From contig NZ_JASBRG010000007.1 in assembly GCF_029961145.1 (NCBI RefSeq), positions 786,155-850,154 on the forward strand: 64,000 nt of DNA, read 5' to 3'. Origin of the DNA: Pinibacter soli (lineage in GTDB: Bacteria > Bacteroidota > Bacteroidia > Chitinophagales > Chitinophagaceae). The position numbers and the translations under genes are program-made. The notes under the pieces were generated by a model that saw only the letters and a list, made by a program, of their open reading frames with translations, did not search any database and had not been told where the DNA came from. Shown here in pieces: positions 34,802 through 55,708 of this stretch (position 1 is its first letter; every line of letters starts with the position of its first letter).

Positions 34802-35695
34802 TTACTGTCCTACTGTTTTATAATAGTTACCCAAATTTGTTGGGGCGCCGTTCTTATCCACCAGCATTGACGTCCAAAGGCCGGCCATTGTGGGCGATCC
34901 GCTGAACCATGAATAGCGGAACACCGCATCCATCGATTCATAAGAGTTTAGCACCTGGGGCATAAAGTTTGCAAGTATCCAGTCGGAAGAATAGTGGTTT
35001 GTTTCAGGATGTCCGCTGGTCGCATTGTCATCACGTGGCGCAAATTCGGTTATCCATACACGTTTTGAATATTTGTTGTAAATATTACTTACCTGGGTTG
35101 CGTAAGTGGAAGGACTTTGTCCCATATAAATATGCAGGGCAATATAATCCACTCTCAGGTTGCGCTGTTGTACACCTTGCATGAATTGATCGAACCATGC
35201 AGCACCAGGCCAGCTCACTGCGGGACTTACCAATTTAATACCCGGATCAAGTTTGTTGCACAATGTTTCCCAATCATCCAATGCCTGCGATACACTCATG
35301 TTTGATTCTGCAGTAAGATCTGGTTCATTAAAACCAAGTACAAAGAAAATCTTACCATCACGATACATCTGGTTCACTACGTCAATATTTGCCTGTGTTA
35401 CGTTCGTATGGCTCCAGAACATTGGAACAAACTCAATTCCTTTCGGCGCATCCGGATCAAGACCTGTAGTAGTGCCCCAGGTATAATACCAGTTTGCATT
35501 GAGGTTTTTTATATTGTCGGCCCAAAAACCAGTACTGGTTCCTGTGCTAAACGCAGCTCCACGTTTTTTGGTAGTAAATGTAGCACTGCCGTTACCGCTT
35601 TGTTTAGCCAGTGGCAAATCGCTTATAAGCTGACTTTTGGTGCAGGATGATGCCAGGATCATCAACAGCATACCAAGTGTTATATTCATTTTCAT
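34802..35695 (-). CDS. glycoside hydrolase family 128-like, probable endo-beta-1,3-glucanase lipoprotein
   Basis: 297 residues from ATG 35695, where the leader MKMNITLGMLLMILASSC has a lipobox Cys. The Glyco_hydro_cc/GH128 barrel is recognisable by FFVLGFNEPDL (acid/base Glu 124) and RVWITEFAPRDD (nucleophile Glu 217), together with WYYTWGTT near the N-terminus, FVPMFWSH and VDYIALHIYMG. GH128 enzymes cut beta-1,3-glucans such as laminarin, curdlan or fungal wall glucan. It is the last gene of the second SusC operon, 43 bases after the GLUG lipoprotein, and would act at the cell surface. Confidence 0.85.
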   Translation of the reverse strand: MKMNITLGMLLMILASSCTKSQLISDLPLAKQSGNGSATFTTKKRGAAFSTGTSTGFWADNIKNLNANWYYTWGTTTGLDPDAPKGIEFVPMFWSHTNVTQANIDVVNQMYRDGKIFFVLGFNEPDLTAESNMSVSQALDDWETLCNKLDPGIKLVSPAVSWPGAAWFDQFMQGVQQRNLRVDYIALHIYMGQSPSTYATQVSNIYNKYSKRVWITEFAPRDDNATSGHPETNHYSSDWILANFMPQVLNSYESMDAVFRYSWFSGSPTMAGLWTSMLVDKNGAPTNLGNYYKTVGQ

Positions 35696-35738
35696 TTGAC
35701 TGTCGTTATTTGTTGTCAAAAAATGTTTTATTCAAAAA

Positions 35739-39504: not shown

Positions 39505-41166
39505 TTAATAGCCTGGATTTTGTATAAAAACTCCATTCGATTGAGTAATCTCATACTGAGGTATTGGCAACAGTCCTGCACGCTGTTTATTATATTTAAC
39601 ACTAAAGTCGCCTGCTTCGCCGTTGTTTAAAACAGACGCGGCATAGTCCTGACCTTTTCTCAATACATCCCAATAACGGACACCCTCAAGTGACAATTCA
39701 AATACTCTTTCATCATCTATCATCGTTTGTGTAAGCTGGCTTGCAGTAGTTGTTACAGAACCAACGCCCATTGCACGTTCGCGAACACGTTTGTAATAAG
39801 TCAATGCTGCGTTTTTATCACCATAATTCAAATTCAGTTCTGCTGCCATCAACAACACGTCTGCAAAACGTATCACGGGGTTATCGTTAGGATAATTTAA
39901 CTCGCGGGAACCTCCAGCAGCGTTGTTATACGTAATTGGTGCAAACTTCCTGCAAAAATATCCTGTGTTCTGATATCCTTTTGTGTATTTAAGCGCTTCG
40001 CCGTCATCGCCGGTTACGGTGCTTGCATTGGCGTTGATAAGGGTAGCGAAACGGCGCGGGTCCTTTGGATCAAATTTGTCAAAAAGTTTTTTGCTTACTG
40101 GCGCGAATGACCAGCCGGCAGCGTATGTACCACTTATGTCACGCATGCCCCACAAAATAACCGCCTGGTTTCCCATGCAACCTTCCCTGTTGCCCCAGTC
40201 GCCCCATTTTGATAAAGCCGAATACTGAACTTCAAACACACTTTCAACATTGTTTTTATTAGCTACATCAAACAGAGGTGTTACACCGCGCTTAGTACCT
40301 GCAGTCACATTTGTTTTGTCGTATGCATTTGGCATCAGATCGTTGCCACTGTTATTGATCACATCATTGCCGATAGCAATAATATCTTGTGTAGTAACAC
40401 CCGGCAGTTGAGGTTTGCCATAATAGCCGGTGTAGTACAACCACACACGCATCAACAAGGCCTGCGCAGCAGCTTTAGACACTCTTCCTTTACTTTCTGC
40501 AGCAATGACAATCGCAGATTTTGGAAGCGCATCGGTTGTACCATCAGTTAGTTTCGCATTGATCGCGTCGCGCAGATCAATGCCAATTTGTTTGTAGATC
40601 TCTTCAGGAGCCACTTGTTTTTGAGCGCCATCTGCTGCTGTATATTGTCTGAGCAACAATGGCACATTGCCAAACAAACGAACAAGATCGAAATAATAAT
40701 ACGCTCTCAAAAATTTAGCTTCAGCTTCATACTGTGGTTTTAGGTCAGGGTGCTCAAATGGTATATTGGGCAACTTATCGAGGAGTATATTGCTGCGTTT
40801 TAACCCGGTGAAATATTTGCTCCACAATGCTTCCGGTCCGGGATCGGTAACAAATTCCTGAAACTGGTCAAGACGTACTGTTGCAGGAATATCAGTCGCA
40901 TTGGCTCCGCCTCCATAACAATAGTCGCCCATTACTTCACTAACAAGTGAGAAGGCCACATTCTGTGCACTGCCGCCTGCGGTACTTGGCGCATCATAAG
41001 TAAGTACGCTATAAGCAGATGTTAAAGCCTGAAAAGCATCAGTTTCATTGCGGTAAAAATTGTCTGCGGTTTGCTGCATCGTCGGATCGATGTTCAAAGA
41101 TTTTGCACATCCTGCCAACGCAGTTAAAGCAAATCCGGATGCAAAAAATATATTTCTAATTTTCAT
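39505..41166 (-). CDS. SusD/RagB-family lipoprotein (beta-glucan locus)
   Basis: 553 residues with leader MKIRNIFFASGFALTALAGC; the mature start AKSLNIDPTMQQTADNFYRN is typical of SusD. Internal family segments are EAKFLRAYYYFDLVRLFGNV, NDNPVIRFADVLLMAAELNL and the C-terminal GLLPIPQYEI. It starts 20 bases after SusC and should be the substrate-binding lid of that transporter. Confidence 0.94.
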   Translation of the reverse strand: MKIRNIFFASGFALTALAGCAKSLNIDPTMQQTADNFYRNETDAFQALTSAYSVLTYDAPSTAGGSAQNVAFSLVSEVMGDYCYGGGANATDIPATVRLDQFQEFVTDPGPEALWSKYFTGLKRSNILLDKLPNIPFEHPDLKPQYEAEAKFLRAYYYFDLVRLFGNVPLLLRQYTAADGAQKQVAPEEIYKQIGIDLRDAINAKLTDGTTDALPKSAIVIAAESKGRVSKAAAQALLMRVWLYYTGYYGKPQLPGVTTQDIIAIGNDVINNSGNDLMPNAYDKTNVTAGTKRGVTPLFDVANKNNVESVFEVQYSALSKWGDWGNREGCMGNQAVILWGMRDISGTYAAGWSFAPVSKKLFDKFDPKDPRRFATLINANASTVTGDDGEALKYTKGYQNTGYFCRKFAPITYNNAAGGSRELNYPNDNPVIRFADVLLMAAELNLNYGDKNAALTYYKRVRERAMGVGSVTTTASQLTQTMIDDERVFELSLEGVRYWDVLRKGQDYAASVLNNGEAGDFSVKYNKQRAGLLPIPQYEITQSNGVFIQNPGY

Positions 41167-41186: not shown

Positions 41187-44100
41187 TTACAGATTAATAT
41201 TACAACCTACGGTAATGGTGCGTGGATGTGGATATACACCATAGTCCACTCCTGTGCTCATAGGGCTGCCGCCAATTTCAGGATCCCATCCGTAGTATTT
41301 GGTAAATGTGAAAAGGTTCTGTGCTGCACCATATACTTTTATGCTTTGGAAGTATTTGAATGGGCGATTGAATGTGTAACCAAGTGACACATTGCGCACG
41401 CGCCAGTAAGAACCATCTTTTACATAGAAGTCAGAAACACTTGACCACGATTGGTTCTGGTCATTTTGTGTAACACGTGGAATGCTATTCGAAGTACCTT
41501 CTCCATGCCAGCGACCCAGCACCCAATTTGCATAATTGCTCATTGGAAGATCCACTCGGCGAAGTACACTGAAGACTTGGTTGCCTGTTGCGAAGCTGTT
41601 ATTAATGGTAAGATCGAAACCGTGATAACCCAGGTTCAGATTAAAACCTCCGGTCCAATCAGGATTAGGATTACCCAGATCAACTTTATCATTCTCATTA
41701 ATTACACCATCTCCGTTTGTATCCTGAAATTTAAAATCGCCGGGTTGTGCTTTAGGTTGAACAAGATTTTTTACACCTGTTTTAATATCACTGTACACAT
41801 AGTTATTGATCTCGTCCTGGTTCTGAAAAATGCCCATTGTTTTCAATCCCCAGAAATAAGCCATCGGGTGGCCAACTTCCATTCTTGTAATTGGCGAGGA
41901 ACCAAAACCCTGCATGGTAACGCCACCTACAAAGCCAGAGCCATTATCAACTTTTGTAACGGTATTTTTATTATACGCCGCATTGGCATTAACATCTAAA
42001 AGCACCTGCCCTATTTTCTTTTTGTACGACAATGACAGCTCTATTCCTTTGTTGTTAACATTGCCTACATTTTTTGTTGGGAAAGATCTTGGTCCATCTC
42101 CATACATCAAAAGATCCTTAGCGATCATCAGGAGATCCTTTGTTGTTTTGGAATAAATATCAATTGTCGCAGTGAAATCATTCAGGAACACAAGGTCAAC
42201 ACCAATATTGGATTGCTCAACCGTTTCCCATTTCAAAGCCGGATTAGGTGTTTTTAAAGGATCTGCTCCCGTTGCAATGGATTGCGATGCAGACTGGCTT
42301 CCATACGCATAACCCATTGCATAAGTAGAGATGGTTGATAAATACTGGAAGTCGCCAATATTATCGTTACCATTTCTTCCCCACCCTGCTCTTAGTTTCA
42401 GGTTGTTGATCCACGCAATATCCTTCATGAATTTTTCATTGCTTAAGTTCCATCCGGCAGATACTGAGGGGAATGTACCATACTTGTTGTTCGGTCCAAA
42501 ACGGGATGAACCATCGCGACGAAATATTGCAGTAAACATGAAGCGGTTATCGTATGAATAGTTTACTCTTCCAAAATAAGAGAACCATGATGCTTCGTAA
42601 TTGCCGTTCACTAACGGACCACCACTAACAGATGGAGCTGCCGAAGATGCCATGCTCAACCATGCATAGTTAGGATCATCAATGATGAGGTCGTTACGAC
42701 TGCCGCTCATTGCTAATGGAGTGTAGTGCTGAGAGCTTGTACCTACTAGCGCAGTGATATCATGGTTACCAAGTTTTTTGATGTATGTCAAAGTATTATC
42801 CCATGTCAGTGTGCGCACTTCGCTCATAGATTGTCCGGCTCCTGTATGCGTAGTTCCGGTTGTTGAGTTCAGTTTATAAATAGGAGTATAGCTTTTAGAA
42901 CCGTCCCATGTAAAGTTTGCAGTTCCGGCCGTTTTAATTCTGAAATCTCTAAGAAATTTCAGTTCTGCAAAACCGGTACCCATCATTTTGGTATACCAGG
43001 AAGGACTATTGTTAAAATAAATGCGGGCAACAGGGTTTACTACTTCCTGCGATACATAATTTGAAGCGGCAAATCCACCGTATTCCTTACCATGAGAGAG
43101 AGTAAGTGTGGTATCATAAACCGGTGTCAGCGGATCCATATTCAATGCACCAACCAGCGGGCCGGCAGTAAGGCTGTTTTGCGTTACTGACTGTTTCTGC
43201 ACGCGGGAAATGGTCACATTCGCACCAGTTGTCAATGCATCATTAAGAAATTTGCGATCAGCTGTAATGTTGAATGTGTAACGCTCAAACTGTGATTTGC
43301 CTTTCGCCAATATACCGTTTTGAGAAAAATAGGCGCCAGACATGCTGTAGGAAGATTGTTTGTCGCCACCCCGTAATGAAATCTGGTGTTGCATTACCGG
43401 CGCATTGCGATACAATACGGCTTCCTGCCAGTCTGTTCCTTTGTATTTGCTATAATAGTCCAGGTCTTCAGCACTAAAAGGCAGTTTGGATTGTCCACCG
43501 TTAGCGGCAGCTTCATTTTGAATAACAGTATATTCATGGGCGTCCAGCACTGGAATTTTGCGTGCTATATTCTGCCATCCGTAATAGCTGTTATACTGCA
43601 CGGTGCTTTTACCGGGCAAACCCTTTTTGGTAGTGATAATGATAACGCCATTTCCTCCTCTTGCTCCATAAATGGCGCTTGATGCGGCATCTTTCATTAC
43701 TTCCAATGATTCGATGTCGGTAGGACTTAAATATTCAATGTCTCCTACAATAACACCGTCTACAATGTAAAGTGGCTGTGCGGTGCCATTTGTTCCTACT
43801 CCACGGATGCGAATGGACATTCCGGTTCCGGGCTGGCCACTATTAGCAGTTACAGTAACTCCGGCCGCCTTGCCCTGCAATGCGTCATCAGCACGCATGG
43901 CGCCCGGTTGCACCAGATCCGCTCCTTTTATGGACGTAATGGCCCCGGTTACAAGACTTCTTTTTTGTGTGCCGTAACCAACGACTACCACTTCATTCAT
44001 CGCCTGCGCAGCTGGTGACAGCGTCACATCCACATTGTTGGTGCCTTTTACAGACACTTCTTTGTCCTTCATACCTACACTGGAAACTACAAGCGTTTCT

Positions 44101-44336
44101 GTTCCGGAAGGTACCTTAAGTGCAAAATGACCTAAGGCATCTGTGGTGGTGCCTACGGTAATTTTTCCTTTTACATATACTGAAACTCCGGTAATGGGGG
44201 CATTATCGTTCTGACCTTTTATTGTGCCCGTGATGGTCCTGCTTTCCTGCGCGAAGGACGTTCTGCTCACAGAAAATACGCAGGTAATAAACAGCAGTAG
44301 ATAGAGGAAGCGTTTGGTACGGCTTTTCATATACAA
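41187..44336 (-). CDS. SusC/RagA-family TonB-dependent transporter (beta-glucan locus)
   Basis: 1049 residues. The leader ends SRTSFAQ; then a carboxypeptidase-regulatory-like domain (ITGTIKGQNDNAPITGVSVY), the plug with MNEVVVVGYGTQKRSLVTGA and ASSAIYGARGGNGVIIITTK, and a barrel ending ITVGCNINL. No STN domain is present. A second in-frame ATG at 44330 is equally possible as start. It heads the operon SusC-SusD-PKD-GLUG-GH128, and the sequence upstream holds a candidate promoter and the shared 16-bp motif. Confidence 0.95.
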   Translation of the reverse strand: MYMKSRTKRFLYLLLFITCVFSVSRTSFAQESRTITGTIKGQNDNAPITGVSVYVKGKITVGTTTDALGHFALKVPSGTETLVVSSVGMKDKEVSVKGTNNVDVTLSPAAQAMNEVVVVGYGTQKRSLVTGAITSIKGADLVQPGAMRADDALQGKAAGVTVTANSGQPGTGMSIRIRGVGTNGTAQPLYIVDGVIVGDIEYLSPTDIESLEVMKDAASSAIYGARGGNGVIIITTKKGLPGKSTVQYNSYYGWQNIARKIPVLDAHEYTVIQNEAAANGGQSKLPFSAEDLDYYSKYKGTDWQEAVLYRNAPVMQHQISLRGGDKQSSYSMSGAYFSQNGILAKGKSQFERYTFNITADRKFLNDALTTGANVTISRVQKQSVTQNSLTAGPLVGALNMDPLTPVYDTTLTLSHGKEYGGFAASNYVSQEVVNPVARIYFNNSPSWYTKMMGTGFAELKFLRDFRIKTAGTANFTWDGSKSYTPIYKLNSTTGTTHTGAGQSMSEVRTLTWDNTLTYIKKLGNHDITALVGTSSQHYTPLAMSGSRNDLIIDDPNYAWLSMASSAAPSVSGGPLVNGNYEASWFSYFGRVNYSYDNRFMFTAIFRRDGSSRFGPNNKYGTFPSVSAGWNLSNEKFMKDIAWINNLKLRAGWGRNGNDNIGDFQYLSTISTYAMGYAYGSQSASQSIATGADPLKTPNPALKWETVEQSNIGVDLVFLNDFTATIDIYSKTTKDLLMIAKDLLMYGDGPRSFPTKNVGNVNNKGIELSLSYKKKIGQVLLDVNANAAYNKNTVTKVDNGSGFVGGVTMQGFGSSPITRMEVGHPMAYFWGLKTMGIFQNQDEINNYVYSDIKTGVKNLVQPKAQPGDFKFQDTNGDGVINENDKVDLGNPNPDWTGGFNLNLGYHGFDLTINNSFATGNQVFSVLRRVDLPMSNYANWVLGRWHGEGTSNSIPRVTQNDQNQSWSSVSDFYVKDGSYWRVRNVSLGYTFNRPFKYFQSIKVYGAAQNLFTFTKYYGWDPEIGGSPMSTGVDYGVYPHPRTITVGCNINL

Positions 44337-44361: not shown

Positions 44362-44457
44362 CAAAGATATCGGAAACAGTTTTCAAATAAAAAGGATTTA
44401 TATCATAAAATATTGATTATTATGCACTTGCAAATAGTTCAATACGCTTTAATCGCA
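44362..44457 (-). promoter_or_regulatory. candidate promoter and upstream 16-bp motif of the beta-glucan SusC operon
   Basis: On the minus strand TATCTTTG (44369-44362) fits the Bacteroidota -7 box TAnnTTTG, 25 bases before the SusC ATG. A TTTG lies 14 bases further upstream. At 44457-44442 stands TGCGATTAAAGCGTAT, which recurs with one change before the GH2 gene at the same distance (72 bases between motif and -7 box). Flanking TTGCAAATGC and TTGCAAGTGC form an additional direct repeat here. Confidence 0.5.
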
Positions 44458-44744
44458 TTTGCAATTCGGATTTATTTTTTGATTGTCAATGCTTTTGGTC
44501 CGACTTTTTCCGACGGGTGAAAAACTTTGATACGCCAGAAAAACTTTATTTTTTCTAAAAAAACCTGGTCTGGAATCGGAACTTTGGTGGGTAAGTTGAA
44601 CTGTGGAGTTATTTATAGCAGAAACTTGCTGCAATCTTACCTTTTTCGTTTAAAAAAAGGCATGATCCACCTCACTAAAAGACATTTAAAGCATTGTCTT
44701 ATTAAGCAGCAAGGCAGAAACTTTTGTACACTACCGTAGATTCT

Positions 44745-45078: not shown

Positions 45079-46305
45079 CTATTTTTTTGGCACTTCAAAT
45101 CCCAATGCCTTTACATACCCTTCGTTTATTACACAATTTTCAAACTTGCAGTTTTCCAGGTAGTCGTTCAGCGCCTGTTTGATCGCTTTGCGGTTAGGCG
45201 CCGCATTGCGAATATCCTTGTAGCTGTTTCTTGGTGTTTCAGCATAAGTTATCAGTGAATCGTACAGGGCAGGCTTGTTTACTGAAGCTATATTTTTGGG
45301 GCTGTCCATCTTTTTATATGGCCAAAAGTGCCAGCCAATGTTGTTTTCTTCCAGTACTTTTCTAAATTTCATCACCCATTCATCGTTATTCTCTCCTGTC
45401 TCACCAGCATAAATAGGTACACTGAATTGATCCCTAAATTCTATAAACCGTTTTACAGAGCCAAAGTCAGGCTGATCACCGTATTTATGAAAAGTATAAA
45501 CAAGTTTTGAATCAAAAGGCTGTCCGAATATCTTGAAATTGGTATTCCACTGGGCACCGCCTAAGAACATAATGTGATTTTTATCAACCTTACGGATCTC
45601 TTTTACAAGGTCTTTATAAAATGGCTCGACGTATTGGCTCAAAGAATCTGCGTTAAAGTAATGTGCCACTGGTTCGTTTAGCAGATCATAACCCATTACT
45701 GTTGTTTCCTTACTGTATCTCGCAGCAATCTTTTTCCAGATATCAATCGTCTGCTTCTTGTATTTCTCACTTTGAAAAAGGAAAGGATAGCCAAAGCTGT
45801 CGTCAATATTGTCACCTGTTTGGCCGCCGGGTGCGCAATGCATGTCAAGAATAACATACAGATCTTCGGCTTTGCACCATTTAATAACCTTATCCAGCAA
45901 TTCAAATCCACGGGTATCATCATTTACACCCAGATAATCTTCTTTGGTAAATAAGCGGTAATTAAAGGGAACGCGAATGGAATTCACTCCAATAGATTTC
46001 AGAAAATGAATATCCTTCTGTGTTACATAGTTTTGAAGAAATTTTTTCCAAAACGCCACCGCTTCTTCCGGTCCAATCACCTGTGCGATAGCCGCATGGA
46101 TCATAGCTGGGGAATTGGTGTTTTTAAATTTAAACATATAGCCTTCCGGCACCAGCCAGTTACCTAAATTGGTTCCTTTTATCAAAAATGGCTTGCCATC
46201 TTTTCCTATAATTTCTTTTCCTTGTACAGTAACAAATTTAGACTGAGCCTGTGCCAGAGAAGTGAAAATGGCTATATAAAAGAATAGGGTACAAATCTTT
46301 TTCAT
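45079..46305 (-). CDS. glycoside hydrolase family 5, exo-beta-1,3-glucanase-like, secreted
   Basis: 408 residues with signal peptide (cleavage after SLAQA-Q). GH5 hallmarks are LIKGTNLGNWLVPEGYMF near residue 42, IGVNSIRVPFNYRL, VILDMHCAPGGQTGDN, YDLLNEPVA (acid/base Glu 211) and VPIYAGETGEN (nucleophile Glu 302). The GTNLGNWL and DMHCAPGGQ segments resemble the exo-beta-1,3-glucanase branch (yeast Exg1 relatives), which suits the GH128 neighbour, although the subfamily cannot be settled by eye. It starts 33 bases after GH2 and ends at a terminator, so GH2-GH5 form one transcript. Confidence 0.88.
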   Translation of the reverse strand: MKKICTLFFYIAIFTSLAQAQSKFVTVQGKEIIGKDGKPFLIKGTNLGNWLVPEGYMFKFKNTNSPAMIHAAIAQVIGPEEAVAFWKKFLQNYVTQKDIHFLKSIGVNSIRVPFNYRLFTKEDYLGVNDDTRGFELLDKVIKWCKAEDLYVILDMHCAPGGQTGDNIDDSFGYPFLFQSEKYKKQTIDIWKKIAARYSKETTVMGYDLLNEPVAHYFNADSLSQYVEPFYKDLVKEIRKVDKNHIMFLGGAQWNTNFKIFGQPFDSKLVYTFHKYGDQPDFGSVKRFIEFRDQFSVPIYAGETGENNDEWVMKFRKVLEENNIGWHFWPYKKMDSPKNIASVNKPALYDSLITYAETPRNSYKDIRNAAPNRKAIKQALNDYLENCKFENCVINEGYVKALGFEVPKK

Positions 46306-46338: not shown

Positions 46339-48183
46339 CTAATTTTTTATGCTGTCATAATATGCTTTCATAACATAAAAGGCTTTTTTCTTTCTGCCAT
46401 GCTGGTCTATCAATCCTTTGTTGTTCCAGCCCTCCTGGTAAGTGGCATTGTTGCGACGGGGCGAACGGAAGTCAGCCAATATCCATGGAGAAATTCCTGT
46501 GAAATTGTCGGGCATTCTTTTTAGCATGGCCACTTGTTCCTGGTAATACCATTCCTGGAACTCTTCGCTCCATAATGTGCCTGCATCTGCGTGATAGCCT
46601 CCCAGCGCTTCAGCACCGGTTTCGCTTATGAACAGGGGCTTGTTATATTTCGTGGCCCAGTTTGCAGTGCGACAAGCTTCCGGAGTGCCGCCATACCAGC
46701 CGAGGTATTCGTTGAAAGCCACTACATCTACATATTCACCAAGTGGGTCATCTATAACCCGCAGATTTTTTTCAGATTGATAATCCACCTCAAGTGCGGC
46801 AGAGACAAGTCGTGAAGGATCCAAACCTCTTGCAGTTTTAAGTAAGGTGCTCATAAAACGTGTACGGGCCTCACTTACAGGTGTTTCATTTCCCACTGAC
46901 CAAATAATAACGCTTGCCCTGTTTTGATCGCGGGATATCATTTCATTCAACTGTACTTTCGCTTTTTCCAACACAGCATCGCTCGTAAAATCGATCGTCC
47001 AGTAAACAGGGATCTCAGACCATACAAGCAATCCTAAAGAATCTGCCATTCTCGTCATGGCTTCATCATGCGGATAATGTGCGAGCCGCACCATATTACA
47101 TCCAAGTTCTTTTGCCCATCCGAGTAACATGGCTGCATCTTTGCTGCTATAAGCGCGGCGTATTTCCTGCGGAACTTCTGCATGTATGCTTATCCCTTTC
47201 AGGAATACTGTTTTTCCATTGAGTAGCAGTTTTTTCCCATCTACAGTAATGGTTCTAAAACCAATTTTATCTGTTACTTTATCCGCAGCAGTTGTTACTA
47301 CAACATTATATAATTTTGGATTTTCGGGACTCCAGCGCTGAAATGTAGTTGGCAGTTTGAAATTGATTTTTGCAGATCCTGCGTCTGCGGTAAACTCTTT
47401 CTTTACTTTGAGTTCGGGTATTTCTACAGAAATTTTTTCTCCTGCTTTAGCATTATCCAATTTTACCCAACCTTCCACTTCTGTTGTATTCACTACCGGC
47501 TTTAGCTGAATGGCATAATTCCTTATCGCAGCAGCAGAAGGGAGTTCCACCAGCTTTACATCACGGGTTATGCCACCATAGTTCCACCAGTCGGTATTGA
47601 GCGTTGGTATTTCATCGGCGTAACGTTTGTCGTCAACTTTTACTACTAAATAGTTATTGGTTGATTTCAACGCATTATCAGGAATCTCAAAATTGAATGG
47701 TGTAAAACCGCCTTTGTGTGTGCCTAGTTTTATACCGTTTAAGTACACGTCGGCTTTATAATTTACCGCGCCGAAATAGAGGTATAATTTGTTACCGGCA
47801 TTTGATTTTGTATAGTCAAATGACTTCTTGTACCACACGGAGCCCTCGTAGTAAAGGAATTTTGGGTCCTGCGAATTCCAGTCACCGGGTACATTCAGTA
47901 AATATTTGTCATTATACTGATGTTCTTTTCTATCAAGTTTATTAGTGGGAATGTCTGTGCTCCAATAGGCTTCCCGGTCGTTTATATTTCTCTCTTTAAA
48001 GCGGTAATCATAAAAACCGGTTTCATAAGGATCGACAATGTATTGCCATTTGCCGTTTAGGCTAAAAGTTTTCCTGGCATTTACGTTGCCGATGATCTCG
48101 TTCTGAGAAAAAACATTAGAGCTGAAAAATAATAGTATGGCGAGAAGAAGCCGCCAGTTCTTTGTGGTTAAGAAATGCCTCAT
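46339..48183 (-). CDS. glycoside hydrolase family 2, secreted (beta-glucuronidase/galactosidase-type)
   Basis: 614 residues from ATG 48183; the longer frame to 48228 lacks a good leader, while this start gives a signal peptide ending SSNVFSQ. The GH2 layout is complete: sugar-binding jelly roll (YEGSVWYKKSFDYTKSNAGN, about 110-215), Ig-like domain, and TIM barrel with IIWSVGNETPVSE (acid/base Glu 433) and PLFISETGAEAL (nucleophile Glu 521). NTDWWNYGGITRDV is a typical GH2 turn. Its length is near that of beta-glucuronidases, but the substrate is unproven. It is the first gene of the GH2-GH5 unit. Confidence 0.88.
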   Translation of the reverse strand: MRHFLTTKNWRLLLAILLFFSSNVFSQNEIIGNVNARKTFSLNGKWQYIVDPYETGFYDYRFKERNINDREAYWSTDIPTNKLDRKEHQYNDKYLLNVPGDWNSQDPKFLYYEGSVWYKKSFDYTKSNAGNKLYLYFGAVNYKADVYLNGIKLGTHKGGFTPFNFEIPDNALKSTNNYLVVKVDDKRYADEIPTLNTDWWNYGGITRDVKLVELPSAAAIRNYAIQLKPVVNTTEVEGWVKLDNAKAGEKISVEIPELKVKKEFTADAGSAKINFKLPTTFQRWSPENPKLYNVVVTTAADKVTDKIGFRTITVDGKKLLLNGKTVFLKGISIHAEVPQEIRRAYSSKDAAMLLGWAKELGCNMVRLAHYPHDEAMTRMADSLGLLVWSEIPVYWTIDFTSDAVLEKAKVQLNEMISRDQNRASVIIWSVGNETPVSEARTRFMSTLLKTARGLDPSRLVSAALEVDYQSEKNLRVIDDPLGEYVDVVAFNEYLGWYGGTPEACRTANWATKYNKPLFISETGAEALGGYHADAGTLWSEEFQEWYYQEQVAMLKRMPDNFTGISPWILADFRSPRRNNATYQEGWNNKGLIDQHGRKKKAFYVMKAYYDSIKN

Positions 48184-48201
48184 ATGACTGCTTTGAGACT
48201 G

Positions 48202-48297
48202 TAAATGTATTAAAACAACACATTCCAAAACTCAAAACAAAATTTTATAAACAATTAAAAATCAACAGTCTGCCATTTTTGATACGCTTTAGTCGCA
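48202..48297 (-). promoter_or_regulatory. candidate promoter and upstream 16-bp motif of the GH2-GH5 operon
   Basis: TGCGACTAAAGCGTAT (48297-48282, minus strand) differs by one base from the motif upstream of the beta-glucan SusC. A near-consensus -7 box TACATTTA (48209-48202) lies 72 bases downstream of it, exactly as in the other operon, and 18 bases before the GH2 ATG. A TTTG is found 16 bases upstream of the -7 box. Confidence 0.45.
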
Positions 48298-48434
48298 GCA
48301 AACAGTTTTCGTTATAGAATTGATAATATGTTCTTTATTGTTTGGGGATTTTTATTGTTGCATGCCTCTCTGATACGCGTAAAAAATTTCTTTAAAGATC
48401 AAAAATGTATTTTAGAAACCCTCTTTAATTAACA

Positions 48435-48587: not shown

Positions 48588-50507
48588 TTAGCCGCCAACG
48601 GTATCTTCAAAAACCAATTTGCTCCAACCTCTTTCCCCTGCGTTCTTTAGTTCTTTTTTTCTCTCTTCCATTAGCTTTTTAATCTTACTGCTATATGACC
48701 AACAGGTACTTTGCCGTATTTCCAATATTTCAGATAACTGGTGCGAAGAAATTTTTCCTTTAGAGGTGTAAATGAGGAACAGCATATAAAATCCTTTATT
48801 AACAGGTATGCGGGTATTGTGAAATATGGTGTATGCCGTAGCAGATTCTTCATAACCACATTTTGAGCAACGACGGCTAAAAGATGTTTTACCCTCGCCA
48901 TAGTGTTCGTTGCCACATTTCTTGCATTGATAACTATCGTTCCATTTAAGATTGGCGAGAAACTTATAGCAGCTTTCGTTGTCAGGATACACTTTGCTGA
49001 ACTCTTCAAAATTCACTTCAGAGGATAACACGCGGGCCTGTGCAATTTTCTCAATATCAGTATGCAAAGTCTCATTATCTTCTTTCAGCAATGCATTCAT
49101 TCTTTTTATTTCTATGGCCTGATGGCTAAGCAGCTCGTTCACATTTTGCAATTCATCATTTTGTTGCTTGATGATGGACGCCTGTTCGGTCACTTCTTTT
49201 GTGCGTTGTACTACTTTAACTTCTAGTTCTTTGTTCAGCTCTTCTTTTAATGCGTCCAAGCGTTTCATTTCTTCAATCACCCGCTGTTGCGCTCTGTCTT
49301 TTTCCTTCTTCATGTAACTTACGCTTTCGCCAATGGCAAAGGAAACAAACATCATTTCCAGTATGAAGCAAAAGCTCAGACTATAGTAATTAAATGGCCC
49401 AAATGGCAGATTGACTAAAGCCAGCACTTTCAACACCCTTATCGAAAAGCCCAATAACAAAAATGAATATCCTGCAACAAAAAAACGGGCAGGATAATAT
49501 TTCTTTCTTAAGACAACTATGCCACAATAGAGACCAAATAAAATGGCAATACCATCAACAAATTTATATACGAACCAATGGTTATTGATAAACAGGCAGA
49601 TTGCGAAAAAAACCGTTCGCAAAACGATGGCATATGCAACCAGTTTATAAAGGCGCGGAGCTTTCGTTTTTAGTCGCAGGAAACTTGCTGTAAATAACAA
49701 CGCACCAATGGTGGCCGTATAAAGGGCGACACCAAATGCGATATCGTTCCACCGCGGAAATGAGGGCCATAAATATTGATACGCAATGCCATTGGAACTC
49801 ATTTCGAAAATGCCTATACTAAAATTGTACACGATATAGTATATGTATTGACGCTGCCTTGTAGCCGCAAACATCATGAAATTATACAAGCAAAAAATGA
49901 GCATCATTCCATAAAAGAAGCCCAGTAGAATGTACTCACGCAATCCATATTTTATAAATTCCTCAACAGGTTTTATTACCACCATTACCGTTGGCGGCTG
50001 CTGTGAACGGATGGCGAAGTAAAAAACCTTGTCTCCGGAAAAATCGTCAGAAAGTTGTATAGTAAAGTTCTTATGACTTATCTGGCGCTGGTTAAACGGA
50101 TACATTGCGCCACATTCATACTCATCAAACCTGCCGCTATCATTGGGCGAATAAAACCTGATGTTATCGATAGTTTGATCGTAAAATTCAAAAACCCAAT
50201 TTTTGTTTGATTTTGAGACATTTCGAACTCGAACCCTAAACCAGTAGGTACTTTTATAATGAAAGGTTTTAGGAATAAAGGACCGGCTTGTTGCAAACTT
50301 ATTATTGAAAGAGCTATCACCTACATCTGTTATGGTATATTGCCCTTTCGCGTCTTCAAATATTTGAATTTCATCGTAAGAAAAAATATGCTTTTCAATA
50401 TTATGGTCAAGTGGCACAGGTATCTGTGCGCTCATACGAGTAGCAAAAACAATGAAGAAGGCAAGCCATATACAGCTTTTCTTATGTGCAGAGATTCGAA
50501 CAATCAT
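48588..50507 (-). CDS. 7TMR-DISM membrane sensor fused to an IS1595-transposase-type zinc ribbon
   Basis: 639 residues from ATG 50507, which provides a signal peptide (SCIWLAFFIVFATRMSAQ). Order of parts: periplasmic 7TMR-DISMED2-like beta domain (about 40-180, with KSTYWFRVRVRNVS and WVFEFYDQTIDNIRFY); seven helices (about 190-395, starting REYILLGFFYGMMLIFCLYN); a coiled coil (about 400-495); then YPDNESCYKFLANLKWNDSY and a four-Cys zinc ribbon (Cys 528, 531, 547, 550), AYTIFHNTRIPVNKGFYMLF and a helix-turn-helix-like tail. The last 140 residues match the N-terminal part of IS1595-family transposases, but the DDE catalytic domain is absent. No kinase, cyclase or GGDEF domain is present. It probably senses a periplasmic ligand and acts as a membrane-tethered DNA-binding regulator. 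Confidence 0.8.
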   Translation of the reverse strand: MIVRISAHKKSCIWLAFFIVFATRMSAQIPVPLDHNIEKHIFSYDEIQIFEDAKGQYTITDVGDSSFNNKFATSRSFIPKTFHYKSTYWFRVRVRNVSKSNKNWVFEFYDQTIDNIRFYSPNDSGRFDEYECGAMYPFNQRQISHKNFTIQLSDDFSGDKVFYFAIRSQQPPTVMVVIKPVEEFIKYGLREYILLGFFYGMMLIFCLYNFMMFAATRQRQYIYYIVYNFSIGIFEMSSNGIAYQYLWPSFPRWNDIAFGVALYTATIGALLFTASFLRLKTKAPRLYKLVAYAIVLRTVFFAICLFINNHWFVYKFVDGIAILFGLYCGIVVLRKKYYPARFFVAGYSFLLLGFSIRVLKVLALVNLPFGPFNYYSLSFCFILEMMFVSFAIGESVSYMKKEKDRAQQRVIEEMKRLDALKEELNKELEVKVVQRTKEVTEQASIIKQQNDELQNVNELLSHQAIEIKRMNALLKEDNETLHTDIEKIAQARVLSSEVNFEEFSKVYPDNESCYKFLANLKWNDSYQCKKCGNEHYGEGKTSFSRRCSKCGYEESATAYTIFHNTRIPVNKGFYMLFLIYTSKGKISSHQLSEILEIRQSTCWSYSSKIKKLMEERKKELKNAGERGWSKLVFEDTVGG

Positions 50508-50773: not shown

Positions 50774-51943
50774 TTACAATACTTCTTCCAGTTTCTTCTC
50801 TAATGCTTCTCCTCTTAAATTAGTCGCTATGATTTTACCTTTAGGATCAATTAAGAAATTCTGCGGAATGCCTGTGATGCCATATTTCAAAGCGGCTTCA
50901 CTACCCCAGTATTTCAGGTCAGACACGTTGGTCCATGCGCCCAGGTGATCCGTTTCAATAGCTTTTATCCATTTGTCTTTATCATTTCCTTTATCCAGGG
51001 AAACGCTATACACAGTAAAGTTTTTGTCTTTAAACTTACCGTAAGCTTGAACTACATTCGGGTTCTCTTTACGGCAAGGTCCGCACCAGCTTGCCCAAAA
51101 ATCGAGCAATACATATTTACCACGGAAAGATGAAAGCGCCACCGGTATTCCATCAGGAGTGTTGAGCGTGATATCTGGCGCAATGCTTCCTACCATAATA
51201 GTTAACTGACCTTCTGTTCTTTTTGCAAAGGCAAGACCTTCAGGCGAGTTGCGTAGGTTCTCCGGCAAGGTTTTGTACAGATCCAATGCTTTTCTAAGAT
51301 CTTCTTTTGAACCACCTGCGGCACGGGAAAAGGCGTAGAAGTAAATTGGAGACTGGGGATTCTCTTTTATGTATTTACCATACACTTCTTCACGAATCAT
51401 TGCCTGCTCTTTTATAATACCTTCTTTTGCTGCCTGCTTTTCCTCTGCAGTTGCATTTTTGTCGAACATCACTTTGTTAAGCACCGGCGTTTGCACTTGC
51501 AGTGCCATCGCTTTTTTATTTAGCTTTTCATATTCTGTATGACTTTTTGAACCGCTAACTGTGAAGTTTACATACCTGTCTTTGCTGGTGATCTTAAGAT
51601 TTCCCGGCTCTACATATACGTCTAGTTTGTTACTATTCGGTCCGTTCATCATAATGCCGACTGTAGTACGCCTTCCGGGAACACTTTCAGCACCAATCAT
51701 GGCAACCATTAGCGGAGCCGTGACTTGCAAATGAAACTGATAAGCACCGTTTACAACATCTGCACTGTCAACATGTTTAGTACCATCTTCTGTCCAAAAC
51801 ATAAGAATCTTATTGAACTTGTCTTCTACATTCACAAACTTGCCGGATATATTTACATCCTTCAGTGGTCTGGGTTCGGTTTGGGAGTGCGCTGCAAATG
51901 GCATAGCAAGCATCATTAAGCCCATTAATCTAAAACGATTCAT
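50774..51943 (-). CDS. TlpA-like thiol-disulfide oxidoreductase with N-terminal DUF4369-like domain
   Basis: 389 residues from ATG 51943; the leader MNRFRLMGLMMLAMPFAAHS fits secretion to the periplasm, and the frame to 51979 overlaps the previous gene. A DUF4369-like beta domain (about 25-140, NISGKFVNVEDKFNKILMFW) and a helical linker lead to a C-terminal thioredoxin fold with DFWASWCGPCRKENP (CGPC, about residue 287) and the cis-Pro stretch YGITGIPQNFLID. It should reduce disulfides in periplasmic substrates. As the last gene of the SusC-SusD-DUF4843-PKD operon it would help unfold imported disulfide-bonded peptides; the role is inferred from context. Confidence 0.88.
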   Translation of the reverse strand: MNRFRLMGLMMLAMPFAAHSQTEPRPLKDVNISGKFVNVEDKFNKILMFWTEDGTKHVDSADVVNGAYQFHLQVTAPLMVAMIGAESVPGRRTTVGIMMNGPNSNKLDVYVEPGNLKITSKDRYVNFTVSGSKSHTEYEKLNKKAMALQVQTPVLNKVMFDKNATAEEKQAAKEGIIKEQAMIREEVYGKYIKENPQSPIYFYAFSRAAGGSKEDLRKALDLYKTLPENLRNSPEGLAFAKRTEGQLTIMVGSIAPDITLNTPDGIPVALSSFRGKYVLLDFWASWCGPCRKENPNVVQAYGKFKDKNFTVYSVSLDKGNDKDKWIKAIETDHLGAWTNVSDLKYWGSEAALKYGITGIPQNFLIDPKGKIIATNLRGEALEKKLEEVL

Positions 51944-51966
51944 TGTCTGTTTTTTGTTTTTTATTA

Positions 51967-53508
51967 TTATAAATTCCATTTGTAACTCATGTTCTTGATC
52001 TTACCGTATCCTTCTGTTATTCTTTCACTGGTTTTATCAATGGTACCATTGGAAGGATCAATAAAATAGCAGTATACTTTACCTGTCTTAGTGGTTTCGT
52101 TCCATGTAGCGATATATACTATTTTGTTCGCATTGGGTAGTAGAGCAAGCTGAACGGCTGGGTAATAAAACTTCTGTAATCTAACGCAGGTTACCGTTTC
52201 GCCAGCAGGTGCAGACCATGCCAGATCTGCCGGAAGTCCCGAATTATATTTAAACAAATACACGCCCGAAGAGGCTCCATACAAAGCATACTGCCCTGCA
52301 AAAGCGGTCGCCATCGTGTTGGCACTCTTTACATTGGGACTAGTGGACATATCAATTTTACGCAGACCCACGTTGTTTGTAGTGCCCATAAAATTGGCCA
52401 CCATAAAATAGGAATTGGTACCGTCGCCCATAATGCTATACTCATAGTTGGTAAGACCCCAGTCGTTTGCTTTCATGTCCAGGCCCACGTTGTCCACATT
52501 AAACTGAGTAGTATTAACCTGTGTGGGGAATCTTGTAACCGTTACTCCGTTTGCTGCTACATAGGCAAAACGTTTATTAGTTTTATCATACACAACCGCG
52601 TCAAAAGCAGATCCGTAGTAGTAAGGTGTCCAACTATCAATTTGACCATAGTCGCCTCCTAAAGCTGCGCCGAAATAATTTATTCTGTAAGATCCTGATG
52701 AAATGAAATTGGTCACATGCACTTTATTATCGTTCACCACCAATTCTTTTCGTGTGTTGTTTCCCGTTAGAAACTGAATGGATTTAGTTGCAGGTGCAGT
52801 CCAGAACAATTTATTGAACGGATAGGTGATAGCAAAAGAAGATTTATCCACTCCTATCATATCATTTTCTGAAGCTATCAGTACATCTCCGGATGATAGC
52901 GGCGCAATTGAATGAAGAAGCGAAACTGGTTTCCCATCAAGCGCTGCACCGTTTGTATTCTTAATCACATCCAGGAACAAACGTGGCTTTGTAACACCTG
53001 TTTTCACTCTTTCATCTACTATGATGCCTACATCTGTTTTTCCTTCTTTTTCATATAGTACCATCCAGCCGTCTGAAAGTATTTCAGATACCTGCAAGTT
53101 AAAACGCTGGTATGTTTCCACCTGTGTGCTCAGGTCTTTTACCGCCAGATGAACGATCCATTTACCGGCAGGTTTAGTGATGGGAACTTTCAGCTTTATC
53201 TGGTGTGATAACGTATCGCGGGAATAAACAGGCGTGCCCACATAGCCTTGAAAAATAACCCAGGTAAAATCCAGCTTACCCTCTACCTCTTTCTCGGAAG
53301 TAACCAACTTACCGTTGAGATAGATCTTGGGTTCAATCGTCAACGTATCGTACCGGTAAACCGCATAGTCTGCCCGTATGTTGTTCACGCTTGTATCAAT
53401 AACAATATTGTCAAGGGTTTTATAATCATAATTCCCTTTATCCTTATAGCAACTGTGAATGCCCAATATCAGGATTACACAGCTTATGATGCTTATTATT
53501 TTTTTCAT
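51967..53508 (-). CDS. PKD-like family SPII lipoprotein
   Basis: 513 residues with leader MKKIISIISCVILILGIHSC. The mature start YKDKGNYDYKTLDNIVID and the later segment GKLDFTWVIFQGYVGTPVYS match the PKD-like family of lipoproteins that regularly follow SusC, SusD and DUF4843 genes. The C-terminal two thirds look like a beta-propeller, with recurring GSSGVYLFKYNSGLP-type blades. It starts 15 bases after the DUF4843 gene and ends 23 bases before the TlpA start. It is probably a surface accessory protein of the transporter. Confidence 0.8.
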   Translation of the reverse strand: MKKIISIISCVILILGIHSCYKDKGNYDYKTLDNIVIDTSVNNIRADYAVYRYDTLTIEPKIYLNGKLVTSEKEVEGKLDFTWVIFQGYVGTPVYSRDTLSHQIKLKVPITKPAGKWIVHLAVKDLSTQVETYQRFNLQVSEILSDGWMVLYEKEGKTDVGIIVDERVKTGVTKPRLFLDVIKNTNGAALDGKPVSLLHSIAPLSSGDVLIASENDMIGVDKSSFAITYPFNKLFWTAPATKSIQFLTGNNTRKELVVNDNKVHVTNFISSGSYRINYFGAALGGDYGQIDSWTPYYYGSAFDAVVYDKTNKRFAYVAANGVTVTRFPTQVNTTQFNVDNVGLDMKANDWGLTNYEYSIMGDGTNSYFMVANFMGTTNNVGLRKIDMSTSPNVKSANTMATAFAGQYALYGASSGVYLFKYNSGLPADLAWSAPAGETVTCVRLQKFYYPAVQLALLPNANKIVYIATWNETTKTGKVYCYFIDPSNGTIDKTSERITEGYGKIKNMSYKWNL

Positions 53509-53523
53509 ACTTGTTGTAAATAA

Positions 53524-54276
53524 TTAGGGGAAAACGACTTCGCTATTATTTTCATCCATTAAAGGGCCGTACTTGTCTTTATATGCCTGCAGAGCAGCTT
53601 TGCATAAATTCTGGAAGTAAGATGCCTGTGTTGCTGTAATTGTATTGTCAGCAAGCACTGGGTCCTTGGCAACTGTATAATAAATTTTAAAGTTGGCCAT
53701 GCCGGTGGTTTGAATGATAAAGGCATACTTCACATTGCTATACGTGCCAAAGTATTTGCTCATGGCGAAATAAGGAGATGTCGCCGCATCCCAGTTATCA
53801 GGCTTCGATACGGCATTTTTAAAAATAACAGTAAGATCACTTAACTCTTCTGCACCTTCCAAAAAGGTTGGGGACTCCTTTAACTTAAAGACAATTTTCC
53901 CTGTGCTATTTTTAAACTCAGTGTAGCCTGCGGGTTTGTCAATGTAGATGGGAAATCTTCCTTCGTACTGTCCAGCCTTAATGGTGTAGATACCAAAAGT
54001 ATAATACACACGGCTGGTATCGCCTGATACGGCTTGCAATTCAAATTTCGTATCGTGGTTCAACGGGTAACCGGAAAGTCTGAAATTAAACATAACAGAA
54101 TCTCTGCCGGTAACGGTGTATGCGAAATTGTGTGTAACGCTATCTTCAACAACACTGCCGGATCCGAGCCAGATATTGATCGCGTTTCTCTCCTCAGGAA
54201 AGGGAAATTTATGCTCTTTCGTGCAGGAAAAGAGAAAGCAGCTGATTATGAATATTAAAAATTTAGACTGATGCAT
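53524..54276 (-). CDS. DUF4843-family SPII lipoprotein
   Basis: 250 residues with leader MHQSKFLIFIISCFLFSC and an immunoglobulin-like beta structure. The segments FPEERNAINIWLG, YTVTGRDSVMFNFRLSGYPL, RVYYTFGIYTIKAGQYEGRF and GKIVFKLKESPTFLEG match the DUF4843 pattern. Members occur almost only after SusD in this operon type and are assumed to sit with the SusCD complex on the cell surface; their biochemical role is not known. It lies 11 bases after SusD. Confidence 0.8.
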   Translation of the reverse strand: MHQSKFLIFIISCFLFSCTKEHKFPFPEERNAINIWLGSGSVVEDSVTHNFAYTVTGRDSVMFNFRLSGYPLNHDTKFELQAVSGDTSRVYYTFGIYTIKAGQYEGRFPIYIDKPAGYTEFKNSTGKIVFKLKESPTFLEGAEELSDLTVIFKNAVSKPDNWDAATSPYFAMSKYFGTYSNVKYAFIIQTTGMANFKIYYTVAKDPVLADNTITATQASYFQNLCKAALQAYKDKYGPLMDENNSEVVFP

Positions 54277-54287
54277 GGTTTGTAGTA

Positions 54288-55700
54288 TTATCGGTTAGTT
54301 ACTCTGTTTGCTGCTTCATACTCTGAAGCAGGTAGCGGGAAAATATATGCCTTCAGGCCAACGAGGTCCTTATCCGATCCGCGGATAGCAGCCATGTTCC
54401 AACGCTTGTAGTAATAAAACAATTGACCCTCTCCAATGAATTCCTTTCTGTATTCATTTGTCATAACGGATCTGAAGTCGGCAGGCGCGGTGGTCATCTG
54501 AGCAACACCTCTCGCTTTTCTAACCGGGTTGAAATCTTTTAATACATCAGTACCGTCGTGATAATCGCACTCGGCAAGTATATAGTAGATCTCAGCGAGT
54601 TTCAGCACCGGCATTTTGTTTTGATAGTATGCGTCGGTAGAGGCCGATTCGGAATATTTGAGTACATATCTTTTATCCGTATTGATGCTTGTACCATTTT
54701 CGAACAAATACAAATAGCGGTAGTCGTCCGTATTATTTTCGTAGTAAGAAAGCAGCGTTGCAGAGTTTAGGGAAAAAACAGTAGTGCCTTCTTCGGAAAG
54801 ATAATTTATCGCATATTGGTTCAGGTTAGTTATCTGCAAAGCAAACAAATGCTCGGGAGCGCCGCTAAGGTCGGTTCCGTTGATATAGTTTGCCTGCGTG
54901 GAAAATGAAAATTTACCTGAATTAATAACGGCCTGGGCGCATTCACGTGCTTTTGCATAATCACCCATGTACAAGTATATTCTTGCCAGCAAGCCCTGTA
55001 CAGCATAATAGTTCAAATGCAACTGCCTGTTGATAAGGTATCCATTGTCATCAAATTCAGTTACTTTTTTTCCAGTAAAAACGGGATCAACTTTTAGTAG
55101 TTCTTTTGCAGCCAACAAGTCTTCCAGAATTCTATTGACCACTTCGTTTACTTTATATTGCGATGTTTGCTGGGCTGTGTACTGTGTTACATATGGAATG
55201 GCAGGTTGCGATGCATTGATGGTATAGCTGGTACCAAAACATCTCAGCAGATCAAAATGAATAAAGCCTCTTAGTGCCAATGCCTCGCCCTTTATAATAT
55301 TGTAGTTATCTCCTTTGAAAACTTTTTTCCCGTCAATGTTCCCCAAAATATTATTGGTATTGCTTAAAGCTTTGTACATATTGCTCCATACCCCTTCAAT
55401 TCTGTTCTGCGATAAAGTGCCTGTGTAATTGTAATTACCATCATCATCATAGGCCGTAGGATAAGTAACCCATTCATGAGACAGTACGCCCATCATTCCG
55501 TATGTGAGCTCTTTGCCATACAGAGGTTCACCTGTAAGGATGGTATATACACCGGCCAGCGCTTCTTTAAATCCAGATTCGTCTTTAAACAGTTCCGAAT
55601 CTTTGATTTGTGAATTGGGCTGTACATCAAGCCATTTGCTGCATGAGGTAAACAGCACTGCAGTGAGTATGATTGCGAACGTTTTGTTTATCTTTTTCAT
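54288..55700 (-). CDS. SusD/RagB-family lipoprotein (peptide-type locus)
   Basis: 470 residues with leader MKKINKTFAIILTAVLFTSC and the mature start SKWLDVQPNSQIKDSELFKD, typical of SusD/RagB. Internal segments are GEALALRGFIHFDLLRCFGT, YAVQGLLARIYLYMGDYAKA and KLAEIYYILAECDYHDGT. It starts eight bases after its SusC partner. At 470 residues it is on the short side, as is common in RagB-like members that accept peptides; the substrate itself cannot be read from sequence. Confidence 0.93.
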   Translation of the reverse strand: MKKINKTFAIILTAVLFTSCSKWLDVQPNSQIKDSELFKDESGFKEALAGVYTILTGEPLYGKELTYGMMGVLSHEWVTYPTAYDDDGNYNYTGTLSQNRIEGVWSNMYKALSNTNNILGNIDGKKVFKGDNYNIIKGEALALRGFIHFDLLRCFGTSYTINASQPAIPYVTQYTAQQTSQYKVNEVVNRILEDLLAAKELLKVDPVFTGKKVTEFDDNGYLINRQLHLNYYAVQGLLARIYLYMGDYAKARECAQAVINSGKFSFSTQANYINGTDLSGAPEHLFALQITNLNQYAINYLSEEGTTVFSLNSATLLSYYENNTDDYRYLYLFENGTSINTDKRYVLKYSESASTDAYYQNKMPVLKLAEIYYILAECDYHDGTDVLKDFNPVRKARGVAQMTTAPADFRSVMTNEYRKEFIGEGQLFYYYKRWNMAAIRGSDKDLVGLKAYIFPLPASEYEAANRVTNR

Positions 55701-55708
55701 GCCTGTAA

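Follow-up and report, generated by a model that had tools for sequence, protein, structure and literature searches.

A seven-helix membrane receptor ending in a transposase-type zinc ribbon, a probable regulator of SusC/SusD loci in Bacteroidota

In a stretch of 64,000 nucleotides from Pinibacter soli, called here the window, we identified a gene whose predicted product joins a 7TMR-DISM receptor to the zinc ribbon and HTH-like helices of an IS1595-family transposase. We consider that this protein is, with a probability of roughly 0.8, a membrane-embedded one-component regulator of the adjacent polysaccharide-utilization locus, most likely an activator; binding, direction and ligand are inferred. 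The elements of this reading that were observed are the domains, the lack of a DDE domain, the conservation and selection, the single clade, the gene order, the promoter layout and its tie to genomes that carry the fusion.

Results

A 7TMR-DISM receptor with a transposase-type C-terminal domain

The fusion gene and the parts of its product are as follows.

48588..50507, minus strand, stop codon included: fusion gene, 639 aa, receptor plus transposase-type ribbon-HTH (Pfam/NCBIfam and 28 homologues)
49983..50372, minus strand: 7TMR-DISMED2, residues 46-175 (Pfam, E 6.6e-28)
49329..49937, minus strand: 7TMR-DISM_7TM, residues 191-393 (Pfam, E 1.7e-42)
49026..49328, minus strand: coiled-coil/signalling-helix linker, residues 394-494 (predicted helix and conserved junction)
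48852..48986, minus strand: IS1595-type zinc ribbon, residues 508-552, with Cys 528/531/547/550 (Pfam and alignments)
48648..48818, minus strand: helical (HTH-like) part, residues 564-620 (NCBIfam transpos_IS1595 and predicted helices)
48612..48629, minus strand: conserved C-terminal tail GWSKLV, residues 627-632, with no DDE domain after it (alignments)

A plus-strand reading of 48588-50507 was ruled out, since it meets many stops in the same register.

An earlier note on this DNA had described a DISMED2-like domain and seven helices followed by a four-cysteine ribbon and a helical tail resembling the front of IS1595 transposases, without a DDE domain. This description held: the Pfam models 7TMR-DISMED2 and 7TMR-DISM_7TM both match, and the four cysteines, at residues 528, 531, 547 and 550, are invariant in 15 aligned orthologues. 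The ribbon model Zn_ribbon_IS1595 (PF12760) matched residues 508-552 with E 5.8e-6 and 26.6 bits, against a cut-off of 25.4, and all three Pfam matches of the 639-aa protein exceed their curated cut-offs. Residues 564-620 were matched by positions 1-58 of the 215 positions of the NCBIfam model transpos_IS1595 (NF033547; E 6.7e-6, 26.1 bits). This score is far below the whole-protein cut-off of 75, as expected because the catalytic part is absent: the match ends at position 58 and the DDE domain is missing. Since separate models match the ribbon and the helices, both parts are recognised, in their native IS1595 order. The note would have counted itself refuted had residues 505-620 not matched the IS1595 ribbon; two models match there.

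No catalytic signalling output (kinase, cyclase, GGDEF or phosphatase) was detected at E ≤ 1 in Pfam or NCBIfam, and 80-103 residues separate the last Cys from the chain end in the 28 fusions. Judged by its sequence, one chain thus holds a membrane sensor and a predicted DNA-binding domain. AlphaFold modelled the C-terminal domain with a mean pLDDT of 85.7, as ribbon strands and separate helices; for the whole chain the mean was 76.4, with an unbroken helix at 376-460 and low confidence over much of 459-497. Foldseek comparison of the C-terminal model with the PDB returned no solved structure at E ≤ 1e-3, the weak matches being ribbons (NudC, TFIIB, ribosomal) and HTH proteins (TrpR). A profile search of the sequences of solved structures (alignment A3) gave none under E 0.3, and PADLOC gave no match.

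Distribution, origin and selection

We found 28 full-length fusions in total. Within the family of the window, a profile of the C-terminal 145 residues (A2, 8 rows) was searched against 394 genomes; 13 genomes each contained a single match, scoring 255-285 bits, whose ORF was 641-683 aa long. Among the matches listed, those that are not fusions scored no more than 124 bits and came from ORFs no longer than 405 aa. Sampling 396 genomes at the order level brought in the fusions G667 and G669 and the distant G580. Class and phylum draws of 295 and 296 genomes, searched with profile A6, yielded ten new fusions in four other families. Mucilaginibacter straminoryzae and Pedobacter sp. ASV17 are included in the 28; the fusion of Pedobacter sp. 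ASV28, cut by a contig end, was left out. The draws are samples, and frequencies are valid for the genomes searched. The window genome has one match to the gene at E ≤ 0.01, which is also its only PF12760 match. Two other genomes of the same genus gave no fusion match, and the gene is therefore patchy.

Pfam was run on 25 of the 28 fusions (G667, G669 and G684 were left out), and the receptor domains PF07695 and DISMED were both matched in 25/25. With a threshold of E ≤ 0.01, every one of the 15 orthologues was matched by the transposase model and by both receptor models, and 14 were matched by the ribbon model. The ten divergent fusions all matched both receptor domains and the ribbon (E ≤ 3.3e-4), just three of them exceeding the ribbon cut-off. 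The CxxC-CxxC arrangement is kept in 28/28. The distant fusion lies on the minus strand at 7874-9796 of L122 (G580), in another family, and shares about 28% identity with the window protein.

Thirteen non-fusion ORFs of the IS1595 type share 35-45% identity with the C-terminal part, and 11 of these ORFs are 300-339 aa long; IS1595-type elements are common in the family of the window. We built a maximum-likelihood tree of the ribbon-HTH region from the 28 fusions and 28 transposase rows, several of the latter being fragments. All fusions fell on one side of one branch (support 95/91), which was present in 94% of 200 bootstrap replicates. G580 is set apart by a long branch; its coiled coil and junction can be aligned with those of the other fusions (alignment A6). 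These comparisons suggest that the ribbon-HTH probably derives from a single capture of the front of an IS1595-family transposase.

Over the whole gene, four close pairs gave a dN/dS of 0.043-0.067, and of 0.022-0.035 when only the C-terminal part was considered; in two more distant pairs it was saturated or nearly so. A broken transposase or an assembly accident is ruled out by the 28 homologues together with these ratios, so that the fusion, which the earlier note had conceded might prove unique to this assembly and broken, is neither: its homologues are full-length, and the close pairs show strong purifying selection. The note's central inference, that a mobile-element domain was captured as the output of a receptor, finds support in the two domain models, the one-clade tree, the selection, the 28 homologues and the promoter layout described below.

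Ribbon ORFs of other kinds were also seen. L047, L048 and L125 carry short ribbon-HTH ORFs of 145, 152 and 134 aa; the first is a broken transposase, since a DDE-like stretch follows its stop, and the other two could be stand-alone ribbon-HTH domains. Near a contig end in L148 (G930), a transposase-like ribbon ORF of the same type lies at about 15582-15833, a few kb downstream of the fusion.

The fusion gene mostly stands at the head of SusC/SusD loci

Downstream of the fusion gene, the window holds the following genes.

46339..48228, minus strand: GH2-family gene, first downstream of the fusion (Pfam)
45079..46305, minus strand: GH5-type (PF00150) gene (Pfam)
41187..44336, minus strand: SusC-type TonB-dependent receptor (Pfam)
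39505..41166, minus strand: SusD-type lipoprotein (Pfam)
34802..35719, minus strand: PF11790 glycoside hydrolase, farther down, its membership of the same locus being inferred (Pfam)

The GH2 start is listed as a TTG at 48228. Because this codon is upstream of the predicted -7 box, an ATG near 48183 is probably the true start.

We observed that 24 of the 28 fusions head a same-strand gene run with SusC and SusD; no background rate was computed. SusC is the next gene in 15 of them (G016, G061, G114, G263, G348, G224, G408, G432, G667, G669, M. straminoryzae, G841, G880, G684 and G930), a short overlapping ORF being ignored in G880. Other genes precede SusC/SusD in nine: GH2 and GH5 in the window, G030, G097 and ASV17; a gene of the 806-aa type, GH3, GH2 and GH5 in G217 and G310; GH3 first in G854 and G727; and two genes first in G1184. 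GH30-type genes are found behind SusC/D in eleven of the SusC-next loci, G016 through M. straminoryzae in the above order. These assignments come from Pfam for representative neighbour genes and from BLAST for the remainder. The stretches read around the G580 fusion and three f33 fusions contain no SusC, and G580 has no SusC/SusD nearby. The f33 fusions (L141, L142, L143) are followed by a secreted-type protein of 291-301 aa and preceded by a very large ORF. In the window, a second SusC/SusD operon, whose last gene is thioredoxin-like, lies upstream of the fusion gene (50774-58807, minus strand).

The GH2, GH5, GH3, GH30 and PF11790 enzymes would fit beta-glucans. That the receptor senses oligosaccharides of these glucans is an inference, for there are no ligand data.

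A putative operator pair linked to the fusion

In the loci closest to the window, the gap between the fusion gene and its operon contains two same-strand copies of AASCGTATYA, which we propose as an operator in the absence of binding data. In the first eight loci a fuller word, GGTAnnnAASCGTATYA, occurs in two copies 90-92 bp apart, copy 1 being degenerate in ASV17. Plain enumeration of 6-8-mers in these eight gaps gave no excess over shuffles; the same-strand spacing alone singled the word out. In seven held-out loci, an exact pair at 88-93 bp was present in six, and the seventh (G348) has one exact and one degenerate copy 90 bp apart. Overall, 13/15 gaps have an exact pair at 87-94 bp. Of 2000 dinucleotide shuffles, 1995 gave such a pair in 0/15 gaps and five in 1/15; it should be noted that the pattern was chosen on 8 of the 15 gaps scored. 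Unpaired extra copies were also seen, as a third copy in G016 and G263 and a minus-strand copy in M. straminoryzae.

Across the genomes of the family, the strict pair pattern is found in 11 of the 13 genomes with a fusion, against 31 of the 381 others (Fisher p 3.7e-10). In all 11 it lies at the operon headed by the fusion; a further strict match occurs in G310 and another in G263, the one in G310 being at the SusC of the same locus. A backwards control pattern matched 28 of the 394 genomes, 25 of them among the 381 without fusion, and the 31 strict matches there are therefore about at background. The two fusion genomes missed are G348 and that of the window, where copy 1 is one letter off. 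With the looser pair SCGTATY, the window genome has nine pairs against one for the backwards control. Seven of the nine are inside stop-to-stop ORFs of more than 90 aa; the only two outside are at the GH2 and SusC promoters of the fusion locus, which are also the only pairs at 60-100 bp in the 64-kb window. The second SusC/SusD operon of the window has no operator pair.

Beyond the closest relatives, the f36, f70 and f18 fusions show no recognisable AASCGTATYA pair. In the three f33 fusions AAACGYAA or AAGYGCAA is repeated at 67, 67 and 77 bp, without a chance test. The operator is thus valid for the clade around the window (18 loci), perhaps with another form in f33.

The idea that the operator is the terminal inverted repeat of IS1595 elements was not accepted. 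Of 22 such elements, 11 yielded inverted repeats, and the operator matrix was applied to six of these; five were at shuffle level, and the score of the sixth (L040), a padded A/T-rich string, was reached by 0.3% of 300 shuffles. A likeness of the operator to transposon ends was not found among the six.

A common promoter layout

At the two promoters of the window we predict the following sites.

48371..48380, minus strand: operator copy 1 of the GH2 promoter, ACGCGTATCA, one letter off consensus (predicted)
48280..48289, minus strand: operator copy 2 of the GH2 promoter, AAGCGTATCA, 91 bp from copy 1 (predicted)
48202..48209, minus strand: predicted -7 box of the GH2 promoter, TACATTTA, at +77 (range-limited scan)
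44528..44537, minus strand: operator copy 1 of the SusC promoter, TGGCGTATCA (predicted)
44440..44449, minus strand: operator copy 2 of the SusC promoter, AAGCGTATTG, 88 bp from copy 1 (predicted)
44406..44418, minus strand: IHF-like site of the SusC promoter, AATCAATATTTTA, exact match to WATCAANNNNTTR, +28 from copy 2
44362..44369, minus strand: predicted -7 box of the SusC promoter, TATCTTTG, at +77 (promoter scan)

The GH2 promoter of the window is a weak example: copy 1 is one letter off, the IHF-like site has 7/9 letters at +26, and a free scan favoured another place for the -7 box. SusC has its own pair where the GH5-SusC gap is sizeable, with a spacing of 88 bp in the window, 79 in G030 and 89 in G310. 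The SusC promoter of G217, fetched last as a test, has a spacing of 88, copy 1 one letter off and an exact IHF-like site at +28. The GH5-SusC gaps are short in G097 (about 65 bp) and ASV17 (about 28 bp), and the strict word is absent from both.

Twenty-one promoters were compared, namely those of 18 fusion operons and the SusC promoters of the window, G030 and G310; G408, G432, G667 and G669, being closely related, do not count as independent. The two copies are 88-93 bp apart in 19/21, and 79 and 76 bp in the other two. An exact WATCAANNNNTTR is present in 11 of the 21, always at +28 from copy 2, compared with a mean of 0.19 and a maximum of 2 in 300 shuffles; partial matches are best at +28 in 17 promoters and somewhere between +24 and +29 in the other four. 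This site was spotted by eye before counting and is IHF-like by its letters only, no specificity data being at hand for IHF/HU of Bacteroidota. We also scanned for -33/-7 promoters, whose consensus forms were taken from the accessible text of PMC10380432 and PMC7366714. When +25 to +104 was scanned, the -7 box of the best promoter was at +77 or +78 in 16/19, the exceptions being the window GH2 promoter, G097 and G310; the mean score was 8.9 out of 10, and none of 200 shuffles exceeded 7.9. With the scan limited to +68 to +89 and ties resolved towards +78, the box is at 77 or 78 in 21/21. This layout is common to the promoters of the 18 fusion loci closest to the window.

Discussion

We propose that a cue, presumably a fragment of the glycan that the locus handles, is perceived by the DISMED2 domain together with the seven helices, and that the coiled coil would relay the signal to the zinc ribbon and HTH. 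The latter may bind the paired AASCGTATYA upstream of GH2-GH5 and again upstream of SusC/SusD, with copy 2 about 85-90 bp ahead of the expected transcript start. The bound regulator would most likely activate transcription, perhaps aided by a DNA bend at the IHF-like site. The ligand, the dimer, the bend and the choice of activation over repression are all inferred in this scheme, as is DNA binding, for which the co-occurrence of operator and fusion is the only support. As the receptor itself ends in a predicted DNA-binding domain, no partner would be needed. CadC and ToxR are membrane-bound one-component regulators with sensor and DNA-binding domain in one protein; since the sites precede the promoter by a fixed distance, activation from the membrane is plausible, as with these two. 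The fusion differs from them by its seven-helix receptor and its transposase-derived zinc-ribbon domain. As a tentative extension, which we would sooner doubt than defend, a membrane-held dimer could bridge both operators in the manner of a transposome, and an IHF-type bend would turn the complex onto RNA polymerase, controlling glycan uptake.

The main alternative is that the same protein is a repressor, which occupies both operators, perhaps by forming a small loop, and is released by a glycan fragment. Spaced operator pairs are typical of looping repressors and no measurement fixes the direction, but neither copy overlaps the predicted promoter, and the 77-78 bp from copy 2 to the -7 box (16/19 promoters, free scan) is a placing of the activator type; we therefore hold repression to be unlikely, without dismissing it. 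The site pair could instead belong to another regulator encoded beside the fusion, the ribbon acting on a different target. Binding data are lacking, and fusions outside the closest clade do without the pair. Against this stand the presence of the pair in 11 of the 13 fusion genomes, its background level in the 381 others, and the neighbourhoods, in whose partly annotated gene lists no shared regulator gene was seen; we give this possibility little credence.

Equally improbable in our opinion is a receptor that signals by way of a partner, its ribbon-HTH having protein or RNA as its target. Zinc ribbons are often protein or RNA binders, and ribosomal and NudC ribbons are among the weak Foldseek matches; the ribbon and the HTH-like helices have nevertheless been retained together as in transposases, and the operator pair accompanies the fusion gene. 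Finally, functionless transposase debris might have landed on a receptor gene by accident, in a family where IS1595-type elements abound, but this is effectively refuted by conservation, that is by 28 full-length homologues with a conserved junction, in one clade, and the low dN/dS of the C-terminal part. We thus retain the activator as the preferred reading.

Like the 7TMR-DISM receptors (PF07695 and PF07696), the fusion has an extracellular DISMED2 domain, seven helices and a coiled coil on one chain. Nine other 7TMR-DISM proteins, inspected by eye, end in histidine kinase, cyclase or SpoIIE-like phosphatase domains, whereas the fusion ends in the ribbon-HTH. With the IS1595-family transposases (PF12760, NF033547) it shares the homologous ribbon and HTH-like helices, but it lacks DDE, is present in one copy per genome and is joined to a receptor. 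Among the known regulators of polysaccharide utilization in Bacteroidota are SusR, hybrid two-component systems and ECF sigma/anti-sigma pairs; the fusion likewise stands at the head of a SusC/SusD locus, and none of the domains of these regulators was found in it with Pfam and NCBIfam. Its linker resembles the signalling helix which, as far as the accessible text of PMC1592074 goes, usually connects sensors with catalytic outputs and infrequently with HTH domains. A 7TMR-DISM protein with a C-terminal DNA-binding domain of the ChiS family is on record in Proteobacteria (PMC8092284, accessible text). As described there, that type too combines a receptor with a C-terminal DNA-binding domain; the fusion differs in its transposase ribbon and HTH, its phylum, its place upstream of SusC/SusD and its paired operator.

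In searches that left out most subscription journals, we found no paper on a 7TMR-DISM receptor with a transposase zinc ribbon, none joining 7TM diverse intracellular signaling with polysaccharide utilization, and none on a domesticated IS1595 zinc ribbon. What is new here is the transposase origin of the output domain, its spread in the class, the position of the gene in front of SusC/D loci and the layout of the operators.

The candidate operator and promoter layout are given beforehand, so that binding and induction are directly testable, and the ribbon after a coiled coil and the site pair together form a signature with which regulated loci can be searched for in other genomes. If the bridging complex exists, the habit of transposases of pairing two DNA ends would have been retained, as a transposome-like enhancer complex at the inner membrane. 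A transposase DNA-binding domain has here become the output domain of a membrane receptor, by what looks like a single event, and has since been retained across several families; if the proposed regulation is true, the fusion would be a new type of regulator for the polysaccharide-utilization loci of Bacteroidota.
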